From contig NZ_CAUM01000101.1 of assembly GCF_000350085.1 (NCBI RefSeq), positions 1-64,000 on the forward strand: 64,000 bases of DNA. Reading direction: 5' to 3'. This document shows positions 55,373 through 64,000 of this stretch, in pieces. A program made the position numbers and the translations under genes. The notes under the pieces were generated by a model. It made no database searches and had not been told where the DNA came from. It worked only from the letters and a program-made list of their open reading frames with translations. The first letter of the stretch is position 1. Each line of letters starts with the position of its first letter. This stretch comes from Mesorhizobium metallidurans STM 2683 (GTDB lineage: Bacteria; Pseudomonadota; Alphaproteobacteria; Rhizobiales; Rhizobiaceae).

Positions 55373-56218
55373 TCAGGCCCGCTCGATCTTCAGCCAGCGG
55401 GCGCAGGCGAGATAGGCGACGGTGACAACCGCCATCAGGATGATCGACAGCGCCGAGGCGAGAGGAAAGTCGCCGCGCCGGCCGATCTGCATCATCACCA
55501 GCTGCGGCATCAAAAGCTCATTGTTACCGCCCAGGATCTGCGGCGTGATGTAGTCGCCGATGCAGAGCACGAAGGTGAGGAAGGCGCCGACCATGATCCC
55601 CGGCAGTGTCAGCGGCAGCACGACATGCAGGAAGGTGCGTACCGGCCCCGCGCCGAGATCGGCGGCGGCCTTGCGGTAGCTCGGGCTGAGCTGTTTCAGA
55701 TTGGCGAAGATCGTCAGCGTCAACAGCATGACGAAGAAATGCACGAAGCCGGTGACGGTGGCGAAGCGCGTATTGGCAAGCTGCAGCGGCTCGGCAACCA
55801 GGCCGAGATTGGTCAGCGCCCGGTTGATGACGCCGTTCTGCGACAGCACCAGCAGCCAGGAATAAGAACGCACGACGTAAGAAGTCCAGAACGGCAGCAC
55901 GGCCAGCATCAGCGCCAGCCGCTGCCAGCGTTCCGGCACCTGTTCGGCGAGGATCCAGGCGAAGGGGTAGGCGAGCAGCACCGAGATCACAGTGACGATG
56001 GCCGTCACCTCAAGCGAATTGACCATCGCGCGCCAATAGGACGGATCGGTGAGGAACTGGCTGTAGTTGGCGAGCGTGAAGCTGCCGCCTTCATGCGCCG
56101 TGAGGCTTGAAAGCCCCATGGCCAGGAAAGGCAGCACGAAGAACAGCAGCGTCCAGCCGAGCGCCGGCGTGACCAGCGCCCAGGGCAGGGCACGCGAATT
56201 GTTCGCGGTGACGCCCAC
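55373..56218 (-). CDS. ABC transporter permease (PotB-like)
   Basis: Inner-membrane permease of 281 residues with six predicted helices. The EAA-type loop is RKAAADLGAGPVRTFLHVVLP. The start is GTG, 9 bp after the binding-protein stop. It has the PotB layout with its first periplasmic loop. Confidence 0.93.
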   Translation of the reverse strand: MGVTANNSRALPWALVTPALGWTLLFFVLPFLAMGLSSLTAHEGGSFTLANYSQFLTDPSYWRAMVNSLEVTAIVTVISVLLAYPFAWILAEQVPERWQRLALMLAVLPFWTSYVVRSYSWLLVLSQNGVINRALTNLGLVAEPLQLANTRFATVTGFVHFFVMLLTLTIFANLKQLSPSYRKAAADLGAGPVRTFLHVVLPLTLPGIMVGAFLTFVLCIGDYITPQILGGNNELLMPQLVMMQIGRRGDFPLASALSIILMAVVTVAYLACARWLKIERA

Positions 56219-56227
56219 GACGGCCGT

Positions 56228-57298
56228 CTACTGCGCCTGCAGCATTTCGGTCCAGACGTCCTGCATCTTCTTGTCGAGATCGGCGTTCGGCGCTGGGTAG
56301 GACTGGGCGCGGGCGAGAAAGCCAGGCTGCTCGTCGAAGCGCAGGATCTTTTTCTGGTCGTCGGTGAGCGCCGCCTTGCTGTTCGCCGGCATGCCCCAGT
56401 AGCAGGAGGAGGTGGCAAGCCGCGCCTGGCCTTCCGGGCTCATAATGTACTGGATGAACTTCAGCGCCATGTCCTTGTTCTCTGAATCCTTGAACATGGC
56501 CAGCGACTGCGACCAGAGCACCGCACCCTCTTTCGGGATCGAGAAGTCAAGCGCCGGGTTTTCCTTGGCCAGCCCCGCCGTCACCCATTCGCCACCGCCG
56601 ACGAGTATGTCGACCTCGCCGGTGGCGAGTGCCGTCTGGCTGGCGGTCACTTCCCCGACCAGCTTGGCGTTGGCCTTCATCTTGAGCAGTTCGGCCTTGA
56701 TGGCGGGCAGGTCGGCTTCGGTCAGCTCCGCCGTTTTCTTGCCGATCGCCAGTGCCGCCATGCCGATGACCGGCAGATAATAGTCGTAGATGGCGATCTT
56801 GCCCTTGTATTTGTCGCCGGTAAGCGCCGCCATCGACTGCATGTCGGCCGGATCGACCTTGGTCTTGTTGTAGCCGATGGTGTTGTAGCCGAACTTTTCG
56901 GTGATGCCGTAGCGCTTGCCGCCGACGACGGTGGAGCCGTCCATCTTCACCTCGGGAAAGAGGTCGGCGACAGGCAGTTTGTCTTCGGGCAGAGGCTCGA
57001 ACAGACCCTTTTCGACGCCGCGCGGAATGTCGATGCTGTCGATCACCATCACGTCCCAGTCGCCGGGTTGCGACTGTTCGACGATGGCCAGCCCAGCGCC
57101 GGTGCCTTCGAACTCCTTGACATTGACCTTGACGCCATTGGCCTCCTCGAAAGGCTGCAGCAGCGCCGGGTCGGCATGATCGCACCAGATCAGCGCGTTG
57201 AGATCCGCGGCCTGGGCGCCGGTCGCGAGCAGCAGCGCCGCGGCCGCGGTTGCCGCGCGCAGATGTGATTTCAGAATGCACGTTAGATTGCTGGACAT
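56228..57298 (-). CDS. ABC transporter substrate-binding protein (PotD-like)
   Basis: Periplasmic binding protein of 356 residues with a signal peptide ending at ATGAQAADL. The opening LNALIWCDHADPALLQPFEEANG and YGITEKFGYNTIGYNKTKV place it with the PotD/AfuA-type family 1 proteins. The segment LVGGGEWVTAGLAKENP is the usual ligand-pocket area. The polyamine-binding acidic residues cannot be confirmed, so the ligand is open. The start at 57298 has GGGAG upstream. The gene is first in a five-gene operon (binding protein, two permeases, ATPase, MBL hydrolase). Confidence 0.93.
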   Translation of the reverse strand: MSSNLTCILKSHLRAATAAAALLLATGAQAADLNALIWCDHADPALLQPFEEANGVKVNVKEFEGTGAGLAIVEQSQPGDWDVMVIDSIDIPRGVEKGLFEPLPEDKLPVADLFPEVKMDGSTVVGGKRYGITEKFGYNTIGYNKTKVDPADMQSMAALTGDKYKGKIAIYDYYLPVIGMAALAIGKKTAELTEADLPAIKAELLKMKANAKLVGEVTASQTALATGEVDILVGGGEWVTAGLAKENPALDFSIPKEGAVLWSQSLAMFKDSENKDMALKFIQYIMSPEGQARLATSSCYWGMPANSKAALTDDQKKILRFDEQPGFLARAQSYPAPNADLDKKMQDVWTEMLQAQ

Positions 57299-57335
57299 CG
57301 AGTGTTCTCCCTTGCCTTTGTGGCTTGTTGCAAAA

Positions 57336-57367
57336 AATTGAACCAATTCTAAAATTGAGTCAATTCT
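57336..57367. promoter_or_regulatory. Tandem TetR-type operators
   Basis: AATTG-AAC-CAATT (57336-57348) and AATTG-AGT-CAATT (57353-57365) are two perfect dyads, each followed by CT, with centres 17 bp apart. They lie in the 91-bp gap between the divergent binding-protein gene and the TetR gene, so one repressor could control both promoters. Confidence 0.75.
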
Positions 57368-57389
57368 GTTTTTGTGGCAAACAGCCGAT

Positions 57390-58004
57390 ATGAGTGGATT
57401 GCGGGCAAGACAAAAGGCGGACCGGCACCGTCGCATCATCGAGGCGGCGGCGGATCTTTTCCGCGAGGCCGGCTATGAAGGCGCCAAGATCGAGACGATC
57501 GCGGCGCAGGCCGAGGTCTCGGTCGGCACTATCTACAATTACTATGAGAATAAGGGCGACATCCTCGGCGCCATCGTCTCGATGGAGGTCAACGAGGTGC
57601 TCAACGCCGGGCGCGGCGTCGTATCCAACCCGCCGGCCAATGTCGGCGACGCGTTGGACACGCTGCTCGGCATCTATATCGAGCATTCGCTGCACTATCT
57701 CAGCAAGGAGATGTGGCGCCAGGCGATGGCGATCTCGACGCAGCTTCCCGACAGTCCTTTCGGCCAGGCCTATACCGGGCTCGACCGGACGCTGACCGAG
57801 CAGATACGCGCGCTGATCGTCCGGCTGCAAGAGGTCGGCCTGGTGCGCCGCGATATCGACGGCCCGGCACTCGGCGAACTCATCTTCAACAACATGAACA
57901 TGATGTTCATCGAATTCGTGAAACGCGACGAAGCGAGGATCGCGGAGTTGCGCGCGGCGATACGCCGGCAGAATAGGATTTTGGTAGCGGCGATTGCGGT
58001 TTGA
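57390..58004 (+). CDS. TetR/AcrR family transcriptional regulator
   Basis: A 204-residue repressor-type protein. The N-terminal helix-turn-helix is clear: RHRRIIEAAADLFREAGYEGAK, then VSVGTIYNYYENKGDILGAI. The ligand-binding half is helical with no recognised subfamily. The start ATG is 23 bp from the second operator. It is divergent from the ABC importer-MBL operon and very likely controls it and itself. Confidence 0.92.
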   Translation: MSGLRARQKADRHRRIIEAAADLFREAGYEGAKIETIAAQAEVSVGTIYNYYENKGDILGAIVSMEVNEVLNAGRGVVSNPPANVGDALDTLLGIYIEHSLHYLSKEMWRQAMAISTQLPDSPFGQAYTGLDRTLTEQIRALIVRLQEVGLVRRDIDGPALGELIFNNMNMMFIEFVKRDEARIAELRAAIRRQNRILVAAIAV

Positions 58005-58028
58005 GAAGGTCTAATTAGTTGACCGTTG

Positions 58029-58044
58029 TTTAGAATAATCTAAA
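58029..58044. promoter_or_regulatory. Palindrome upstream of the DUF995 gene
   Basis: TTTAGA-ATAA-TCTAAA is a perfect dyad 53 bp before the start codon, in an AT-rich stretch. It looks like the iron control element bound by rhizobial Irr (TTAGAA-type arms), but the spacing is a base shorter than the form I remember. Confidence 0.4.
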
Positions 58045-58096
58045 GTGCTTGCTCGATGGAGGTACCGAACGACAATCAACGAGGGGGAGTAGCGTT

Positions 58097-58573
58097 ATGA
58101 GACGGATTCGTTCAGCAGCATTCCCTATTTTGGTCTCGATTCTGGCAGCGCAGGTATCGGCCGCATCGGCCGACAATTTGCCCAAGACCGCCAAACCTAT
58201 GTCGGCGGATGAATTGCGTGCCGTCTATTCAGGAAAGTCCGCTGTCTGGGACGACGCTCGCGCTTTCTTTGCTCCGGACGGGAGTGTCATCGGTTACAAT
58301 ACAAAGGGGAAGGTTACTTTTTCAGGCAGTTGGAGTGTTTCTTCAAATCGAAATTGCATGAAAGTTGCCTGGAAGTCGATCAAGTCGGCCGATACCGGTA
58401 AAGCGTCCGATTGCTGGCAGTGGTACAAGGACGGAAAGAAGATCTGGACGTTATGGTCGACCCGCTATGATGGCTCCAAACCCAAGAAGGATGATTATTA
58501 CCAAGGCGAGTTGAAGAGCCTGAAAGCCGGAGACAAGGTATCCAAGGAATACGCGAAACTGACTAAATCATAA
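58097..58573 (+). CDS. DUF995 domain protein, exported
   Basis: A 158-residue secreted protein. The signal peptide ends at SAASADN; the core follows the DUF995 pattern (MSADELRAVYSGKSAVWDD, GYNTKGKVTFSGSWSVSSN, then CWQWYKDGKKIWTLWS). Two Cys may form a disulfide. It is probably periplasmic and of unknown role. A strong GAGGGGG site precedes the ATG. The gene is visibly less GC-rich than most of the window and has an Irr-like palindrome upstream. Confidence 0.85.
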   Translation: MRRIRSAAFPILVSILAAQVSAASADNLPKTAKPMSADELRAVYSGKSAVWDDARAFFAPDGSVIGYNTKGKVTFSGSWSVSSNRNCMKVAWKSIKSADTGKASDCWQWYKDGKKIWTLWSTRYDGSKPKKDDYYQGELKSLKAGDKVSKEYAKLTKS

Positions 58574-58701
58574 GCCGACCTATGGATGTCGTATTCCGCC
58601 ACAGCTAATTGCCGCTAGCGAAGCTGCAGGCTTGAGCAGCAGTGACTCTAGTCACGCGCCCGAAGTGCGCACTCGGCAAGACATTTAGCATCTCAGTCCC
58701 T

Positions 58702-58720
58702 TCTCTCTCTCTCTCTCTCT
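58702..58720. repeat. TC dinucleotide microsatellite
   Basis: About nine and a half uninterrupted TC units, 107 bp upstream of the diguanylate cyclase start. Copy number at such tracts can change by slippage and alter promoter spacing; here that is only a possibility. Confidence 0.85.
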
Positions 58721-58827
58721 ACCGCCGCTGACTCGCCATAGGCGATAAAATTCACCATTCAATCAAATAAATAAGTCGAAGTAACCAATCAGAAATTCGC
58801 CGCCGTCGACAATGCCATCCGGTCTTT

Positions 58828-60714
58828 ATGCCGAAAGGTCCCCTGGTGGCTATCTGGCAACCTCTTTTCGCAAATCTTGCCGCCTCTGCTGTCATGCTGG
58901 TTGCCTGGAGTTCTGTCGGCGATTTCGTGGCCCGGTTGAACGAGACACGCCAGAAGCTGCTGTTTGGCGCTGTAATGACTGCGGGCACCATCGGCTCGAT
59001 GATGATGGCCTTCGAGGCATCCCCCGGCGTCTACAATGATTTTCGTGGGCCATTGATCGCCGTGACGGGCTTTTTCGGCGGCGTGCCCGCCGCTGTCATG
59101 GCAGCCGGGGCGGCCTTGATGTATCGCCTGTATCTCGGCGGAGCAGTCTTCTCGGGCGTTTTGAGCATCATGATTGCGACGACCATTGGGTTGGTTGGCT
59201 ATGCTCTGCGTGGATCCCGGCGCATCCGATACCTGGATCTCATGCTCATGGCTGCCGCGGTCGCGTCTTTCAGTTCCCTGGTTGTGCTGACGCTGCCCAT
59301 GGAAAAGCAGGCTGTTCTGATAGCGCAGCTTTGGCAGCGTGTTTTGCTGGCGTTTGTCGCCACCCTGCTTCTGGGCGCTCTGCTTCTGCAGGAAATGAGG
59401 CGCCGCGAGCTGTCCGTCGCCAACCAGCTTTTTCGCTCCATGGTCGATGCCTTGCCGGATTGCCTGAACATCAAAGGTATCGACGGCCGGTTTCTGGCGG
59501 CAAATCCAGCCACCGCGAAACTGATGGGAGCGGCGAGCGCGGACGATCTCCTCGGCAAAACCGATTTCGATTTCTTTCCGCCGGAACTCGCGAAAAAGTT
59601 TCGTGACGACGAACTGGCGGTGCTGCGGGAGGGAAAGCATGCGACCATCGAGCAGCCAGGCATTTTTGCCGATGGCTCGACCGGTTGGCTGTCGACCTTG
59701 AAGGCCCCGATGACGAACGATCTGGGCGATGTCATCGGGCTGATCACGCACAATCGCGATGTCACGCTGCGCAGGACGTTGCAAACAAGGCTCGAAGAGA
59801 CCCAGGCCTATCTGGATCAGGCGCTTGAGCACATGAATGATGGGCTGGCGATGTACGATCCGGATGGCACCATTCTGTTCTGCAACAATCGTTTTCGGGA
59901 ATTGTTTCCCCTCACGGCACATCTGCGGAAGCCGGGTTCCAGCTTCGCCGATATCATCCGAGCGTCGGTCAAACTTCGTGAGGAGCCGCTTGGTCCTCGC
60001 AAAAGCCTGGACGATCATCTTGCTGAAAAACTCGCGACGCTCCGGGAGGACGGTGAGAAACTGATCGAACTCGGTAACGGCAGAGTATTTGCCTCGCGCA
60101 CCAAGGTCTTGGCCAATGGCTGCACGGTGCAGACGATCTCGGATGTGACGGAGCGGCGCAGTTTCGAGAAGAGTCTCGAACGCCAGGCGCTGCATGATCC
60201 TCTCACCGGCTTGCCAAACCGCGCCTTCTTCAACCGCGAACTCAACAGGCTGGTCGACAAGGCGCGGTCGGAGGGCGGCGAGCTTGTCGTCATGCTTCTC
60301 GACCTCGACCGCTTCAAGGAGGTCAACGACAATTTCGGACATGCCGTGGGAGACATGCTTCTGGTCGAGATTGCACGACGTCTAGAGAAATCAATCAGGC
60401 GCGGTGACATGGTTGCCAGGTTGGGTGGCGATGAATTCGCCGTGCTGATGTATGGTCCCACGGACGGCACCGGCGACGTCAGCCTGGCGACACGGATCAT
60501 GAAGAACTTGTCGCAGCCGCTGAAGATGGACGACGTCACCCTGCTTCCCGGCGGATCCATCGGCTATACCGTCTTTCCCGGGGATCAGGCAGACCCGGAC
60601 GGCCTGCTCAAGAATGCCGACAAGGCGCTCTATCAGGCCAAGGCAAGAGGCCGGGGCACCTGGAAAGCCTATGACCCAAATGCGGTTGCGACGACAGCCG
60701 CTCGACGCGGGTAA
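58828..60714 (+). CDS. Membrane diguanylate cyclase with PAS domains
   Basis: A 628-residue c-di-GMP synthase. The first 190 residues have about five or six hydrophobic helices resembling the 5TM LytS-type sensor (FRGPLIAVTGFFGGVPAAVMA). Two PAS modules follow (about 205-315, FRSMVDALPDCLNIKGIDGRF; about 325-440, YLDQALEHMNDGLAMYDPDG). The GGDEF domain has an intact active site GGDEF (533-537) and the inhibitory RxxD site at R524-D527. No EAL domain. No good ribosome-binding site was seen at this ATG. Confidence 0.92.
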   Translation: MPKGPLVAIWQPLFANLAASAVMLVAWSSVGDFVARLNETRQKLLFGAVMTAGTIGSMMMAFEASPGVYNDFRGPLIAVTGFFGGVPAAVMAAGAALMYRLYLGGAVFSGVLSIMIATTIGLVGYALRGSRRIRYLDLMLMAAAVASFSSLVVLTLPMEKQAVLIAQLWQRVLLAFVATLLLGALLLQEMRRRELSVANQLFRSMVDALPDCLNIKGIDGRFLAANPATAKLMGAASADDLLGKTDFDFFPPELAKKFRDDELAVLREGKHATIEQPGIFADGSTGWLSTLKAPMTNDLGDVIGLITHNRDVTLRRTLQTRLEETQAYLDQALEHMNDGLAMYDPDGTILFCNNRFRELFPLTAHLRKPGSSFADIIRASVKLREEPLGPRKSLDDHLAEKLATLREDGEKLIELGNGRVFASRTKVLANGCTVQTISDVTERRSFEKSLERQALHDPLTGLPNRAFFNRELNRLVDKARSEGGELVVMLLDLDRFKEVNDNFGHAVGDMLLVEIARRLEKSIRRGDMVARLGGDEFAVLMYGPTDGTGDVSLATRIMKNLSQPLKMDDVTLLPGGSIGYTVFPGDQADPDGLLKNADKALYQAKARGRGTWKAYDPNAVATTAARRG

Positions 60715-60928
60715 CGACGCGTTTAGTCCGGCTCGCGCCTCAGCAAAGGATCGGCATGGTGCCGCGACATCGACGGGTCGGCCGAATACTGGCGCGCCGA
60801 CGTCAAAACACTCCGATGGCACAGCGTTCTTCGCGTGAACCACGATACGCCTATACACCCCGAGAAACGTAAGGCGCGAACGCGCGAGCCACTCCACGGC
60901 TTCCCATCAAGTGGGCTTAATCCCGATT

Positions 60929-61126
60929 CTAGCGAGCATGCCTGGGCGGCCGCGCGCGGGGAAACGGCACGATCGTCACCGGCGCCTTCCGGAATTCGGC
61001 GATGGCTATTTCCTCGATCAGCGCGTCGAGTGCCTGGCTGACGCTCTGGCTTGTTTCGTCGAGGCCGCAGAGGCGGTTTTGCGCACACTCCAAAAGCTCG
61101 CGCGCTGCCGCGAAGTCGCTTCGCAT
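60929..61126 (-). CDS. Small hypothetical protein (65 aa)
   Basis: A 65-residue product with a helical, leucine- and alanine-rich body (FAAARELLECAQNRL, VSQALDALIEEIAIAEF) and a basic Pro/Arg tail. AGGTG lies about 7 bases before the ATG. No overlapping gene competes. Helix-forming composition and an isolated position make it plausible, but no family is recognised. Confidence 0.45.
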   Translation of the reverse strand: MRSDFAAARELLECAQNRLCGLDETSQSVSQALDALIEEIAIAEFRKAPVTIVPFPRARPPRHAR

Positions 61127-61378
61127 GACAACACCTATTGGTTTGGCCGCCGCACGGATATTGTCAGCCCGCTAAATTGAGCGATTGCTAATATACACAG
61201 GAGAAGTTTAATCGAATGGCATTGAATGGCCGGGACTGGATGCCGGCCGAGCGCAGCTAGGCCGGTAGATATGGCGCTTGGTACCCCCATGCGAAATGCC
61301 TTCTAATCCCTGAGGCGGACGTTCGCTCCGGCTCGGCCGAATTCACGCCATGACCCATCTTGGGTTAGGTGGGGCCTC

Positions 61379-62332
61379 TCAGCAGTTCTTGCGCAACAGT
61401 CTACTGGCGATCGCATGGCTTATCTCTAAGTTCGCCTCGATCTCCAACCAAAGATATTGCCCCTCGGGGTTCGACTCGAAGAAGACGTACCCTAATTCAT
61501 CGGAGTAACGCATATCGACCGCACTGTAGACGAGCCCGAAATCCGCCACCATCTGAATCAGTGCCTCCTCCACGTCGGCGGGCAACGTCCAGGGGGTGAC
61601 CTCCGTCTCCACGAATCGTGTGTCGATCACATCCTCCAAAGGGGCGAAAATGATTCGCGCCGCAAAAACCCTGTCGCCGACGACCGTGGCGCGAATGTCG
61701 AATTCGCCCCTGATCCGCTCCTGGAAGATGGCCGGGCATGTAATCAATCTGTCGATCGACTCGAAGTCCTCAGTCCGAAGGCGTCGAGTTGGATGTATGC
61801 CCACGCGAGGGCTGTGAAACATCTTGTAGATTGTCTCACCACCCATTCTTTCGTGAAAATCTTTGACGGCGACAGGGTCGTTAGTTATGAGCGTCTCGGG
61901 AACTCGCAATCCCAATGCCTGAGCACGCGTTAACTGAGCAGGTTTATACGCAGCCAGCTGACTCTTGCCCGGTTCATTGAAAGAGTTCTCTACTAGTCCG
62001 TGAAGAGTTCCTGTAATTGCTATCTGGCGCTCTGTATGAGCTACCGAGAGCACACCTGTCTTTGCGCGCTCGTTGGAAATACTAATAGGGTATGCGGTTC
62101 TCCGCCACCATAGCCCGGCAATGTTGGCAAGCTGTAACGATTCAGCAGCCCCTCGACGGTCTAAGACTTGAAGGTCAAAACCACCTTTGCCTATGGTCGC
62201 GAGCAAGTCATACGAACTCGTAAATTCTTGGACGTCGAGAATGTATGCATCCCCTCCGAGCCGCTCGGTCGCGACCTTGACAGCGTGAGCATGTAAATCA
62301 TCGGAATGCGCTACGATTACTGCGGTGCCCAT
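61379..62332 (-). CDS. ATP-grasp peptide ligase, MvdC/MvdD (graspetide synthetase) type
   Basis: A 317-residue enzyme. The N-terminal pre-ATP-grasp part ends in IAGLWWRRTAYP (WWRR at 75-78), typical of microviridin-type ligases. The ATP-grasp core has NEPGKSQLAAYKPAQLTRA, ALGLRVPETLITNDP, FQERIRGEFDIRATVVGDRV, GLVYSAVDMRY and the Mg site ESNPEGQYLW (E286 and N288). Relatives join Ser/Thr or Lys side chains to Asp/Glu side chains of a ribosomal peptide, forming rings. It is 9 bp downstream of the candidate substrate gene and less GC-rich than the backbone. A general RimK-like ligase is the alternative. Confidence 0.83.
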   Translation of the reverse strand: MGTAVIVAHSDDLHAHAVKVATERLGGDAYILDVQEFTSSYDLLATIGKGGFDLQVLDRRGAAESLQLANIAGLWWRRTAYPISISNERAKTGVLSVAHTERQIAITGTLHGLVENSFNEPGKSQLAAYKPAQLTRAQALGLRVPETLITNDPVAVKDFHERMGGETIYKMFHSPRVGIHPTRRLRTEDFESIDRLITCPAIFQERIRGEFDIRATVVGDRVFAARIIFAPLEDVIDTRFVETEVTPWTLPADVEEALIQMVADFGLVYSAVDMRYSDELGYVFFESNPEGQYLWLEIEANLEISHAIASRLLRKNC

Positions 62333-62341
62333 CGATCGTCG

Positions 62342-62842
62342 TTAGATCGCGTGGCACCAATCATCAACCCCGGAGTCATCGTTAGCTCCGCCACTCCTGG
62401 TCGCGCTATTGCTCGAAAAAGCAACGTCGCTCCGAGGCACTAAGTTGTACCCAGTCTTCGAAATCCAATCGATCTCGCGCTCGCTCGGGCCCTTGCTGCA
62501 CGCTTTCGGTTCCAGATGGCCCGCCATGCTGAACGGAACGGCTCCGACCAAATCCGAAGCAGCGATGGAGTGTATTGTGGTCAACTGGGTGTTATGACTG
62601 ATGGTCAGGATCGCGTATGGCGGGCTGGGCAAGTCCCCGAGGCTACGGGGGATGACCGAAATGTCAGAAACTCGATTACGGGCGACTGAGTATCCGATTC
62701 CCGCGTAAGCGAAATTCACTGCTTCCGGCAAAACTTCAATTATTTCAACCAGAAGCCTTAGGTCATCGGCACTGGGTGGCGCGGAAGCTTCACCCTTGCT
62801 CAGACTGGGGTTCTCTTTTGCAAAGTCGTCGACACTGGGCAT
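62342..62842 (-). CDS. Candidate graspetide precursor or partner protein (166 aa)
   Basis: I recognise no family. The start ATG at 62842 has GGAG 8 bases upstream; a longer open reading on this strand runs back over the tRNA fragment and is not coding. The N-terminal 45 residues are polar then helical (SADDLRLLVEIIEVLPEAV), like a leader. The C-terminal 24 residues hold Ser143, 144, 146, Thr148, Ser150 and then Asp155, 156, 160, 161 before WCHAI, the hydroxyl-then-acid order seen in graspetide cores. The middle 90 residues are unexplained, and the protein is longer than most known precursors. Confidence 0.6.
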   Translation of the reverse strand: MPSVDDFAKENPSLSKGEASAPPSADDLRLLVEIIEVLPEAVNFAYAGIGYSVARNRVSDISVIPRSLGDLPSPPYAILTISHNTQLTTIHSIAASDLVGAVPFSMAGHLEPKACSKGPSEREIDWISKTGYNLVPRSDVAFSSNSATRSGGANDDSGVDDWCHAI

Positions 62843-62988
62843 CACCGTGCTCCGTTGAACACCGAAATATACCAAGGTTAACCGTAGCGTCACCTTCAGT
62901 ATTCGGTCAAGCCGCCTGGTGGAGAAAAGGCTCTGTCGGTGAAAACCCAGGCCGCCCGCCCGCCACCCGAAGCTCGAAGAGCGAAGGG

Positions 62989-63033
62989 TGGTGCCCCCGG
63001 ACGGGATCGAACCGCCGACCTTCGGTTTACAAA
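62989..63033 (-). other. 3' fragment of tRNA-Thr(TGT): integration site (attL-like)
   Basis: Reading leftward, TTTGTAAACCGAAGG continues into GGTTCGATC and ends in GGGGGCACCA. This is the anticodon loop (anticodon TGT), the 3' side of the anticodon stem, a complete T arm and the 3' acceptor strand with encoded CCA. The matching 5' half is absent from the next 100 bp, so it is not a functional tRNA. A tyrosine integrase starts 168 bp away, which fits a duplicated attachment core; the intact tRNA should lie at the far right end of the element. Confidence 0.8.
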
Positions 63034-63200
63034 TTTTGTGCCAGAACACCCCGAAGGGTAACAGACCCTACCGCTAGCGGAAACAAAATTAAGCAAAATC
63101 AATGTTTTAATGCTGATGGAGCACCGGTTTGCATATCGGTTCATAACGTAGTATCACATACCCGTGGTTACCCCTGATGTTACCCCGGAGCGATAAACCG

Positions 63201-64000
63201 ATGCCTGGACCGATCCCCGCGCAGCATAAAAAGGCCGCTGCATTCGTCAGCGCATTGAAGCCAACGGCAACGCGGCAAGAGATATCGGACGCCGCGCAAG
63301 CCGGGCTTTATTTGGTCATGCAACCGCAACCGAGCGGTGCGCTATCTTGGGCGGTGCGAACGAAGATCGACGGTAAGCCGGCGAAAGTAACCATCGGACG
63401 CTATGACGAAATCGGCAGCGGCGACCGCGCCAGCAACATCATATCGCCAACGCAAGCGCTCAACGTCACACAGGCACGGGCAGCGGCCGAAAAGGTCATT
63501 GCGGATGCGAAGCGTGGCAACGATCCCCGAACGCAAAAGATCGACAAGACAAGCGTCAACGCGTGGTTTGATGAATTCATCAAGACCGCTCGCGCAACCG
63601 GCTTCAAGGGCAGGGCTGTCAAGGCATCGACCGCAGACGAATACGAACGCATTATCTCGACCAACATCAAGCCGCACTGGAAACATGTCACCGACATTCG
63701 GACAATCGACTATCGCGATGTTGAGAAGCTTCTGGCGAAACTCACGCCGGGCGCACGTCGCAACGCCTTCGCGGTGCTGTCTGCATTCTTCCGTTGGAAA
63801 CCAGTTGCGCGAGCCATCGGCCGAAACATCATTGATCTGGCGGAAGCGCCAGCAAAGCCGCAAAGCCGCGACCGCGTTCTAGCGACCGACGAGATCAAGA
63901 CGGTTTGGAACGCTTCCGAAAAGTGCGGCTATCCGTTCGGGCCGATGGCGCAACTGCTCTTGCTCACGGGTCAGAGGAGAGACGAGATTGCCGAATTGAA
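63201..64000 (+). CDS. Tyrosine-type site-specific integrase (partial, runs off window)
   Basis: About 266 codons are present. The N-terminal arm-binding DUF4102-like domain shows YLVMQPQPSGALSWAVRTKI and KVTIGRYDEI; a SAM-like core-binding domain follows (VNAWFDEFIKTARATGF ... VLSAFFRWKPVARAIG). The catalytic domain begins near residue 225, and the first catalytic Arg is in LLLLTGQRRDEIAEL. The remaining HxxR and Tyr are beyond the window. GGAG lies about 12 bases before the ATG. P4-like integrases of this type insert at tRNA 3' ends, in line with the tRNA fragment next to it. Confidence 0.92.
   Translation, partial: MPGPIPAQHKKAAAFVSALKPTATRQEISDAAQAGLYLVMQPQPSGALSWAVRTKIDGKPAKVTIGRYDEIGSGDRASNIISPTQALNVTQARAAAEKVIADAKRGNDPRTQKIDKTSVNAWFDEFIKTARATGFKGRAVKASTADEYERIISTNIKPHWKHVTDIRTIDYRDVEKLLAKLTPGARRNAFAVLSAFFRWKPVARAIGRNIIDLAEAPAKPQSRDRVLATDEIKTVWNASEKCGYPFGPMAQLLLLTGQRRDEIAEL

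Follow-up and report, generated by a model that had tools for sequence, protein, structure and literature searches.

In characterised graspetides, a ligase phosphorylates Asp or Glu, which is then attacked by Ser, Thr or Lys (PMC13097080). The usual description of RiPP precursor leaders is of short segments that are mostly unstructured (PMC10858898). A Phhx(1,2)h motif is present in about half of the precursors of one survey (PMC8939145), fuscimiditide requires an RPFG element in its leader (PMC13003496), and a 'DFR' motif is named as critical for graspetide synthetases (PMC13097080). Cyclisation of a protein terminus by a graspetide ligase has been described with engineered substrates (PMC12291112). 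Literature searches for graspetides in Mesorhizobium or Phyllobacterium, for ATP-grasp RiPP precursors of Rhizobiales and for folded leaders of ATP-grasp RiPPs returned no report among the papers covered, and the main texts of PMC8939145 and PMC13097080 contain no word beginning with 'rhizob'; the family with an SGG core described below may already be listed in the published supplementary group tables (groups 1-43).

The window, that is, the whole stretch of 64,000 nucleotides of Mesorhizobium metallidurans STM 2683 that was analysed (contig NZ_CAUM01000101.1, positions 1 to 64,000), contains a two-gene locus that is probably, at a probability of about 0.75, a minimal graspetide cassette in which the precursor joins an SGG-turn core to a folded N-terminal extension. 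The graspetide class itself is known and, as far as seen, this core and the fusion of a folded domain to the precursor are the apparent differences; the locus looks like a variation on the known graspetides, since its tail is carried behind a small folded domain. The features of the locus are as follows.

61355 to 62929, minus strand: two-gene block common to a Phyllobacterium plasmid (92.6% identity over 1598 columns)
61379 to 62332, minus strand: ATP-grasp graspetide-type ligase P0001, 317 aa (profile matches and sequence comparison)
61691 to 61699, minus strand: D-x-R motif DIR, residues 212-214 of P0001 (D212 and R214 invariant in four relatives)
62342 to 62842, minus strand: predicted graspetide precursor P0002 with folded N-terminal extension, 166 aa (open reading frame and homologues in loci L011 and L009)
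62345 to 62425, minus strand: core tail VAFSSNSATRSGGANDDSGVDDWCHAI, residues 140-166 of P0002 (pLDDT below 50 for residues 123-166)
62375 to 62407, minus strand: core motif SATRSGGANDD, residues 146-156 of P0002 (pattern [ST]x[ST]xSGGxxDD)
62525 to 62536, minus strand: PFSM, candidate leader recognition element, residues 103-106 of P0002 (sequence conservation)
62570 to 62764, minus strand: predicted small all-beta domain, about residues 27-91 of P0002 (AlphaFold2)
62850 to 62853, minus strand: GGAG, Shine-Dalgarno-like, 7 nt ahead of the P0002 ATG (the sequence itself)
62866 to 62893, minus strand: promoter-like GTGACG-16-TATATT 5′ of the P0002 gene (consensus scan alone)

The two genes are laid out as an operon on the minus strand, with the P0002 gene upstream, the P0001 gene downstream and a gap of 9 bp (62333-62341) between them, as the sequence-only reading had proposed; the lower GC that it suspected is also found (0.555 for the P0002 gene and 0.538 for the ligase gene, against 0.617 for the window). 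By consensus scan, two promoter-like sites were found in the region against 1.1 expected by chance. To the left of the cassette lie genes for a GGDEF/PAS protein and for a DUF995 protein, and to its right an integrase followed by six further ORFs, namely one AAA_25 protein and five without a Pfam match. None of these listed neighbours was recognised as a transporter or protease, in agreement with the earlier remark that none is adjacent. The integrase, which has an arm DNA-binding domain (63177-63998), begins near a tRNA-3′-end-like stretch of 34 bp (62980-63013) that matches another contig at 91% (G000:C134:15112-15145), and the AAA_25 protein comes next. An attachment-site origin of the cassette was considered and dropped, and we claim no link between the two, because the tRNA-end-like stretch separates the cassette from the integrase.

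The motifs WWRR, VPETLITNDP and ESNPEGQYLW, from which a graspetide-type ligase had been proposed, are all present in P0001, and the assignment is borne out by the HMM search, by profile matches to solved ligases and by the D-x-R motif. The MvdD pre-ATP-grasp domain, PF21068, matches above its cut-off (32.4 bits against 27). The best NCBIfam match, TIGR04187 (181.2 bits, 2.8e-53), is below its subfamily cut-off of 350 bits, and P0001 is likewise below the equivalog cut-offs of TIGR04185 (128.5 bits against 425) and TIGR04184 (163.7 against 475); all three models align along its whole length. A profile built from P0001 and three relatives (A4) matched eight PDB sequences, consisting of six graspetide-type ligases (5ig9, 5ig8, 7m4s, 7mgv, 9bou and 7drm; E 1e-36 to 2e-60, full length) and two RimK structures (E 4e-4). 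We take all six to be graspetide ligases, and 5ig9 and 5ig8 to be microviridin ligases. Residues K170, D212, R214, D273, E286 and N288 are invariant across the four related ligases, and K170, D273, E286 and N288 presumably are the ATP/Mg residues. On sequence comparison, P0001 is a graspetide-synthetase-type ligase.

The same profiles bear on the proposal that the ligase adds amino acids to the tail, as in RimK-like glutamylation, or makes some other side-chain bond there rather than intramolecular esters. RimK-family matches are present (TIGR00768 at 2e-9, in addition to the RimK structures at 4e-4), as is a match to a phage S6-glutaminyl-transferase family (2e-7). However, graspetide-type ligases match more than 30 orders of magnitude better and do so along the entire protein, pre-ATP-grasp domain included, and the order of donors before acceptors with a GG turn would suit ring closure. 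This proposal is therefore very unlikely.

The C-terminus of P0002 carries the putative core. The sequence-only reading had described its 24-residue end, SSNSATRSGGANDDSGVDDWCHAI, as five Ser/Thr followed by two DD pairs; this order stands, except that one extra Ser lies between the DD pairs. The pattern [ST]x[ST]xSGGxxDD occurs in none of 20000 shuffles of P0002 and in six of 5000 ORFs (at least 30 aa, from all fetched loci), namely those of four related loci and of two overlapping fetches of the window locus, and the shorter SGGxxDD is likewise confined to those six, counts that are descriptive because the pattern was read from the same four loci. More independent support comes from L059, a locus in a genome of the same genus, which was found after the first three loci and carries the motif. 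The variants are SATRSGGANDD in the window, SGTRSGGSYDD in Phyllobacterium, TDSTSGGQKDD in a soil metagenome-assembled genome (MAG) and TNSFSGGQADD in L059; only these four loci carry the core motif, and two of them are near-identical. A chance origin of the tail was rejected on the motif scan and the homologous loci. In the last 28 residues, P0002 and its Phyllobacterium counterpart P0004 differ by five substitutions, none of which falls on the 11 Ser/Thr/Asp positions, although as a test this is weak (p 0.063). Because SGG sits between the donors and the acceptors, it is read as a hairpin turn and not as a leader-cleavage site. Judged by sequence, the core pattern of donors, SGG turn and DD acceptors is distinct enough for further members to be recognised.

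The pair has relatives elsewhere. A Phyllobacterium zundukense plasmid (L011) has both genes, with a ligase 95% and a precursor (P0004) 86% identical to those of the window, and P0004 is absent from the plasmid's gene table. The soil alphaproteobacterial MAG (L009), the sole relative among 10 pattern-matched genome contig stretches, has the pair at 43% (ligase) and 26% (precursor P0003) identity. The P0003 and P0004 genes are each directly upstream of their ligase gene, and P0002, P0003 and P0004 are homologous throughout (none of 2000 shuffles as good). When window positions 56001-64000 and the next 12.4 kb (L014) were compared with the 21 kb of L011, the two-gene block was the only match at E 1e-5; besides the two genes it takes in 87 bp on their upstream and 24 bp on their downstream side, and it has no other recognised gene. 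The block thus occurs in two genera, and because it is all that the compared stretches of the window's contig and of Phyllobacterium have in common, the pair probably moved as a unit. The search with P0002 found no relative besides the window's own in 385 genomes of the class and one relative among plasmids, and the search of plasmids with P0008, the L059 precursor, found none. The ligase patterns used gave no match among viral contigs, and two phage records contain distant ligase matches. In an unannotated uncultured phage of 485 kb, a stretch (LR745208.1:224394-224534) weakly matches residues 29-79 of P0002, within the beta domain (35%, E 0.09).

Between the window and Phyllobacterium, dN/dS is 0.23-0.28 for the ligase and 0.59-0.73 for the precursor overall, with 0.43-0.47 in residues 1-100 and 0.9-1.1 in the C-terminal 64 codons, and the indels are whole codons. 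The ligase is, by this measure, under purifying selection, and the pattern suits a core that would hold its bond-forming residues alone, the numbers being small. A decayed or merely coincidental gene pairing without a product is suggested by the lower GC and by the adjoining integrase and tRNA-end-like remnant, but both frames are open in three genomes at the identities given above, and the whole-codon indels and the selection on the ligase also speak against it; we consider decay or chance barely plausible.

The distribution of such ligases was surveyed at a threshold of E ≤1e-3, with the window's genome counted each time, weak RimK-like matches included and genomes overlapping between searches. 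On these terms, ligase matches were found in 7 of 101 relatives and, by taxonomic rank, in 9 of 146 genomes at genus level, 13 of 394 at family level, 19 of 397 at order level, 8 of 337 at class level and 36 of 239 at phylum level. One ligase of the same genus (L061, G1231:C1:4684860-4685828) has an in-frame TAG in the match and is perhaps broken. After addition of plasmid and MAG loci and exclusion of three plasmid loci, L106-L108, 85 non-duplicate ligase loci were compared by those ORFs whose end lies no more than 600 bp upstream of the ligase. The top four places in the profile ranking go to the window, Phyllobacterium, the soil MAG and L059, a rank that follows by construction because the profile was built from them. 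On the comparison of upstream proteins that the sequence-only reading had called for, the Ser/Thr-then-Asp tail is conserved upstream in all four, L059 included, and [ST]x[ST]xSGGxxDD was found upstream of the ligase in none of the other 81 loci. The sequence-only reading had named, as evidence against itself, ligase homologues paired with a different conserved short precursor. Distant ligases do pair with other proteins, but the window, Phyllobacterium and the soil MAG retain the P0002 type. Candidates for such a precursor (TKTxxExDD repeats, ETGEDQKGE and the Gly-rich DNTSIGDINISS) were found at distant ligases, outside the clade of the window ligase, and were set aside.

Several of the distant loci have precursor-like proteins of their own. 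Locus L013 (3693-3989) and L035 have related small proteins directly upstream of their ligases (none of 2000 shuffles as good), that of L013 ending in GGTISKSRDDLS; the L013 and L050 upstream proteins are at most borderline relatives (52 of 2000 shuffles). Gly-rich upstream proteins in L046 and L080-L085, with an NQSGKSGGD-like segment near the start and a DNTSIGDINIS-like end, are possibly another precursor family. In L002 and L022-L026, of the same order, conserved proteins directly upstream of the ligases have a signal-peptide-like start and a DSxQDSHPDGFKPGE end. Repeats of the TKTxxExDD type characterise precursor-like upstream proteins in L028, L029, L030, L042, L051, L070, L071 and L078. 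Repeat-rich upstream proteins in L021, L048 and L049 share a C-terminal segment like RGMLDAQGxxxWxQxxAAYxQ, seen in L048 as a short end, and the L012 upstream protein, which presumably includes a metalloprotease-like region, is perhaps similar to this segment in a looser, by-eye sense.

The ligase trees place the ligases of the window, Phyllobacterium and the soil MAG in one group (support 100/91), and this group joins the Allorhizobium ligase of L013, which has a very long branch (85/93, 49 rows). The L059 ligase branches with L012, L021, L048 and L049 in a fork that is open and has weak support. The four motif-bearing ligases do not form one clade in the best tree, and a single clade is not rejected (p-AU 0.43). 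The first tree, which gave the 100/91 group and the L059 fork, held a duplicate window row that was removed for the 49-row tree and the p-AU test.

The L059 precursor, P0008, has 131 aa and an N-terminus unlike that of P0002. Over the stretch from PFTL through the linker to the core, only two of 2000 shuffles score as high against P0002 (six of 2000 with the core cut off), and none of 2000 does for the same C-terminal part against P0003; once the core is removed, the P0003 and P0002 linkers resemble each other less strongly (33 of 2000 shuffles as good). Because P0008 resembles P0002 there alone, PF leader, linker and core are taken as the common unit, to which the predicted beta domain is attached in three of the four precursors. 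PF is invariant in P0002, P0003 and P0004, PFTL precedes the core in P0008, and P0003 carries two additional PF. The PFSM, PFGL and PFTL elements are located 41-56 residues ahead of the core motif; measured against Phhx(1,2)h, they are not strict Phh, and they lie at residues 51-103, outside the first 30.

This distribution also bears on the possibility that the upstream protein is a partner of the ligase, a chaperone or recognition factor such as MirC for rosaritide, with the gene for the actual precursor lying elsewhere. Graspetide systems with separate partner proteins are known (PMC13097080), and P0002 has a predicted folded domain that would fit such a role. Nevertheless, the conserved part of the protein includes the Ser/Thr-Asp tail and the PF leader, the only parts in which P0008 resembles P0002, and the block common to Phyllobacterium lacks any other recognised gene. 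A partner role is accordingly unlikely, and P0002 is best regarded as the predicted precursor itself.

AlphaFold2 of residues 22-102 of P0002 with the L009 homologue predicts six strands (mean pLDDT 76, pTM 0.66). The model of the whole of P0002 (two sequences) is of low confidence (pLDDT 53), with a beta region at residues 27-90 and nearly all residues from 92 onwards under pLDDT 50. Fold comparison of the beta domain gave weak likenesses to SH3/RuvA-type small barrels (best Z 4.2 over 52 residues, rmsd 2.7, 1tuc), Foldseek gave no match at E ≤0.001, and VIA likewise gave no convincing fold; because the fold matches are weak, the domain is named a small beta barrel and nothing further. The structure-sequence search with the precursor alignment reached a best E of 0.96, and the Pfam and NCBIfam precursor models matched none of P0002, P0003, P0004 and P0008. 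The sole NCBIfam match of P0002, a short POMP repeat at residues 139-153 (E 0.011, 15.5 bits against a cut-off of 15), is read as spurious because P0003, P0004 and P0008 do not have it. In PHROGs, P0002 and P0008 had no match and P0003 matched one family of unknown function (E 0.055). By eye, the N-terminal domain seemed common to P0002 and the upstream proteins of L013, L035 and L050, an idea that found no support (418 to 1691 of 2000 shuffles as good). The two forms originally suggested for P0002, an unusually long precursor with a new core pattern or a folded protein modified at its C-terminus, are both compatible with these models, in which a predicted beta domain leads into a part of low confidence.

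As a working model, the precursor would have three parts, a beta domain (about residues 27-91), a leader with PFSM (103-106) and a flexible core (about 140-166). The ligase would dock onto the leader segment and, with ATP, phosphorylate the Asp side chains of the DD pairs, whereupon the Ser/Thr hydroxyls upstream of the SGG turn would attack the phosphorylated Asp. The outcome would be at least two omega-ester rings about the GG turn, with the Ser/Thr arm set against the Asp arm. The two-gene cassette may need nothing beyond itself, and a graspetide precursor fused to a folded domain would offer a naturally occurring system for studying substrate recognition by these ligases. The tail may be freed by a protease whose gene lies elsewhere, or it may stay on the beta domain. 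A finished product that includes the beta domain, with the tail locked in a multi-ring ester hairpin around SGG and never released, is a possibility that we rather doubt. If so, graspetide chemistry would modify a protein terminus instead of making a peptide natural product, and a graspetide ligase would here cyclise a protein end in nature, something that to our knowledge is otherwise known from engineered substrates only.

Among known systems, the actinobacterial TgmA/TgmB-type loci are the closest by ligase family, TIGR04187 being the best NCBIfam match of P0001, and they resemble the window in that the precursor adjoins the ligase and in that the tgmA products of L068, L072 and L075 have a PW element in the leader and a tail with Ser/Thr before an Asp-rich part. 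They differ in that P0001 is under the TIGR04187 cut-off, the window lacks the tgmC methyltransferase present in L072 and L075, and TgmA of L068, L072 and L075 (88-99 aa) is shorter than P0002 and does not have its N-terminal domain. Proteusins use other modifying enzymes, and the domain of P0002 is predicted to be all-beta; the two are likened by description and not by sequence, in that proteusins too are RiPP precursors with long folding leaders (PMC13003496, PMC10858898).

The microviridin systems (MdnB/MdnC and MvdC/MvdD) provide the solved structures nearest to P0001, 5ig9 and 5ig8, and a PF-type leader, PFFARFL (PMC8939145), whereas P0001 is far under the MvdC/MvdD equivalog cut-offs and the window has a single ligase and another core pattern. 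Fuscimiditide and the graspimiditides (ThfA/ThfB) are similar in that a recognition element, RPFG, lies ahead of the core (PMC13003496) and, for fuscimiditide, in that two ester links give a stem and a loop (PMC13003496, PMC12291112). In contrast to P0002, the fuscimiditide leader has 67 aa and ThfA is described as a random coil, and an O-methyltransferase makes the aspartimide, for which the window locus has no such gene. Rosaritide (MirA-D) has Ser/Ser/Thr donors followed by three Asp acceptors, all joined as esters, and combines a TIGR04187 ligase with the requirement for an additional folded protein (PMC13097080). There the folded component stands apart as a protein of its own and a PCAT exporter gene is present, whereas in the window the domain is fused to the precursor. 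By analogy, rosaritide is a plausible model for the type of ring that the window's cassette would make.
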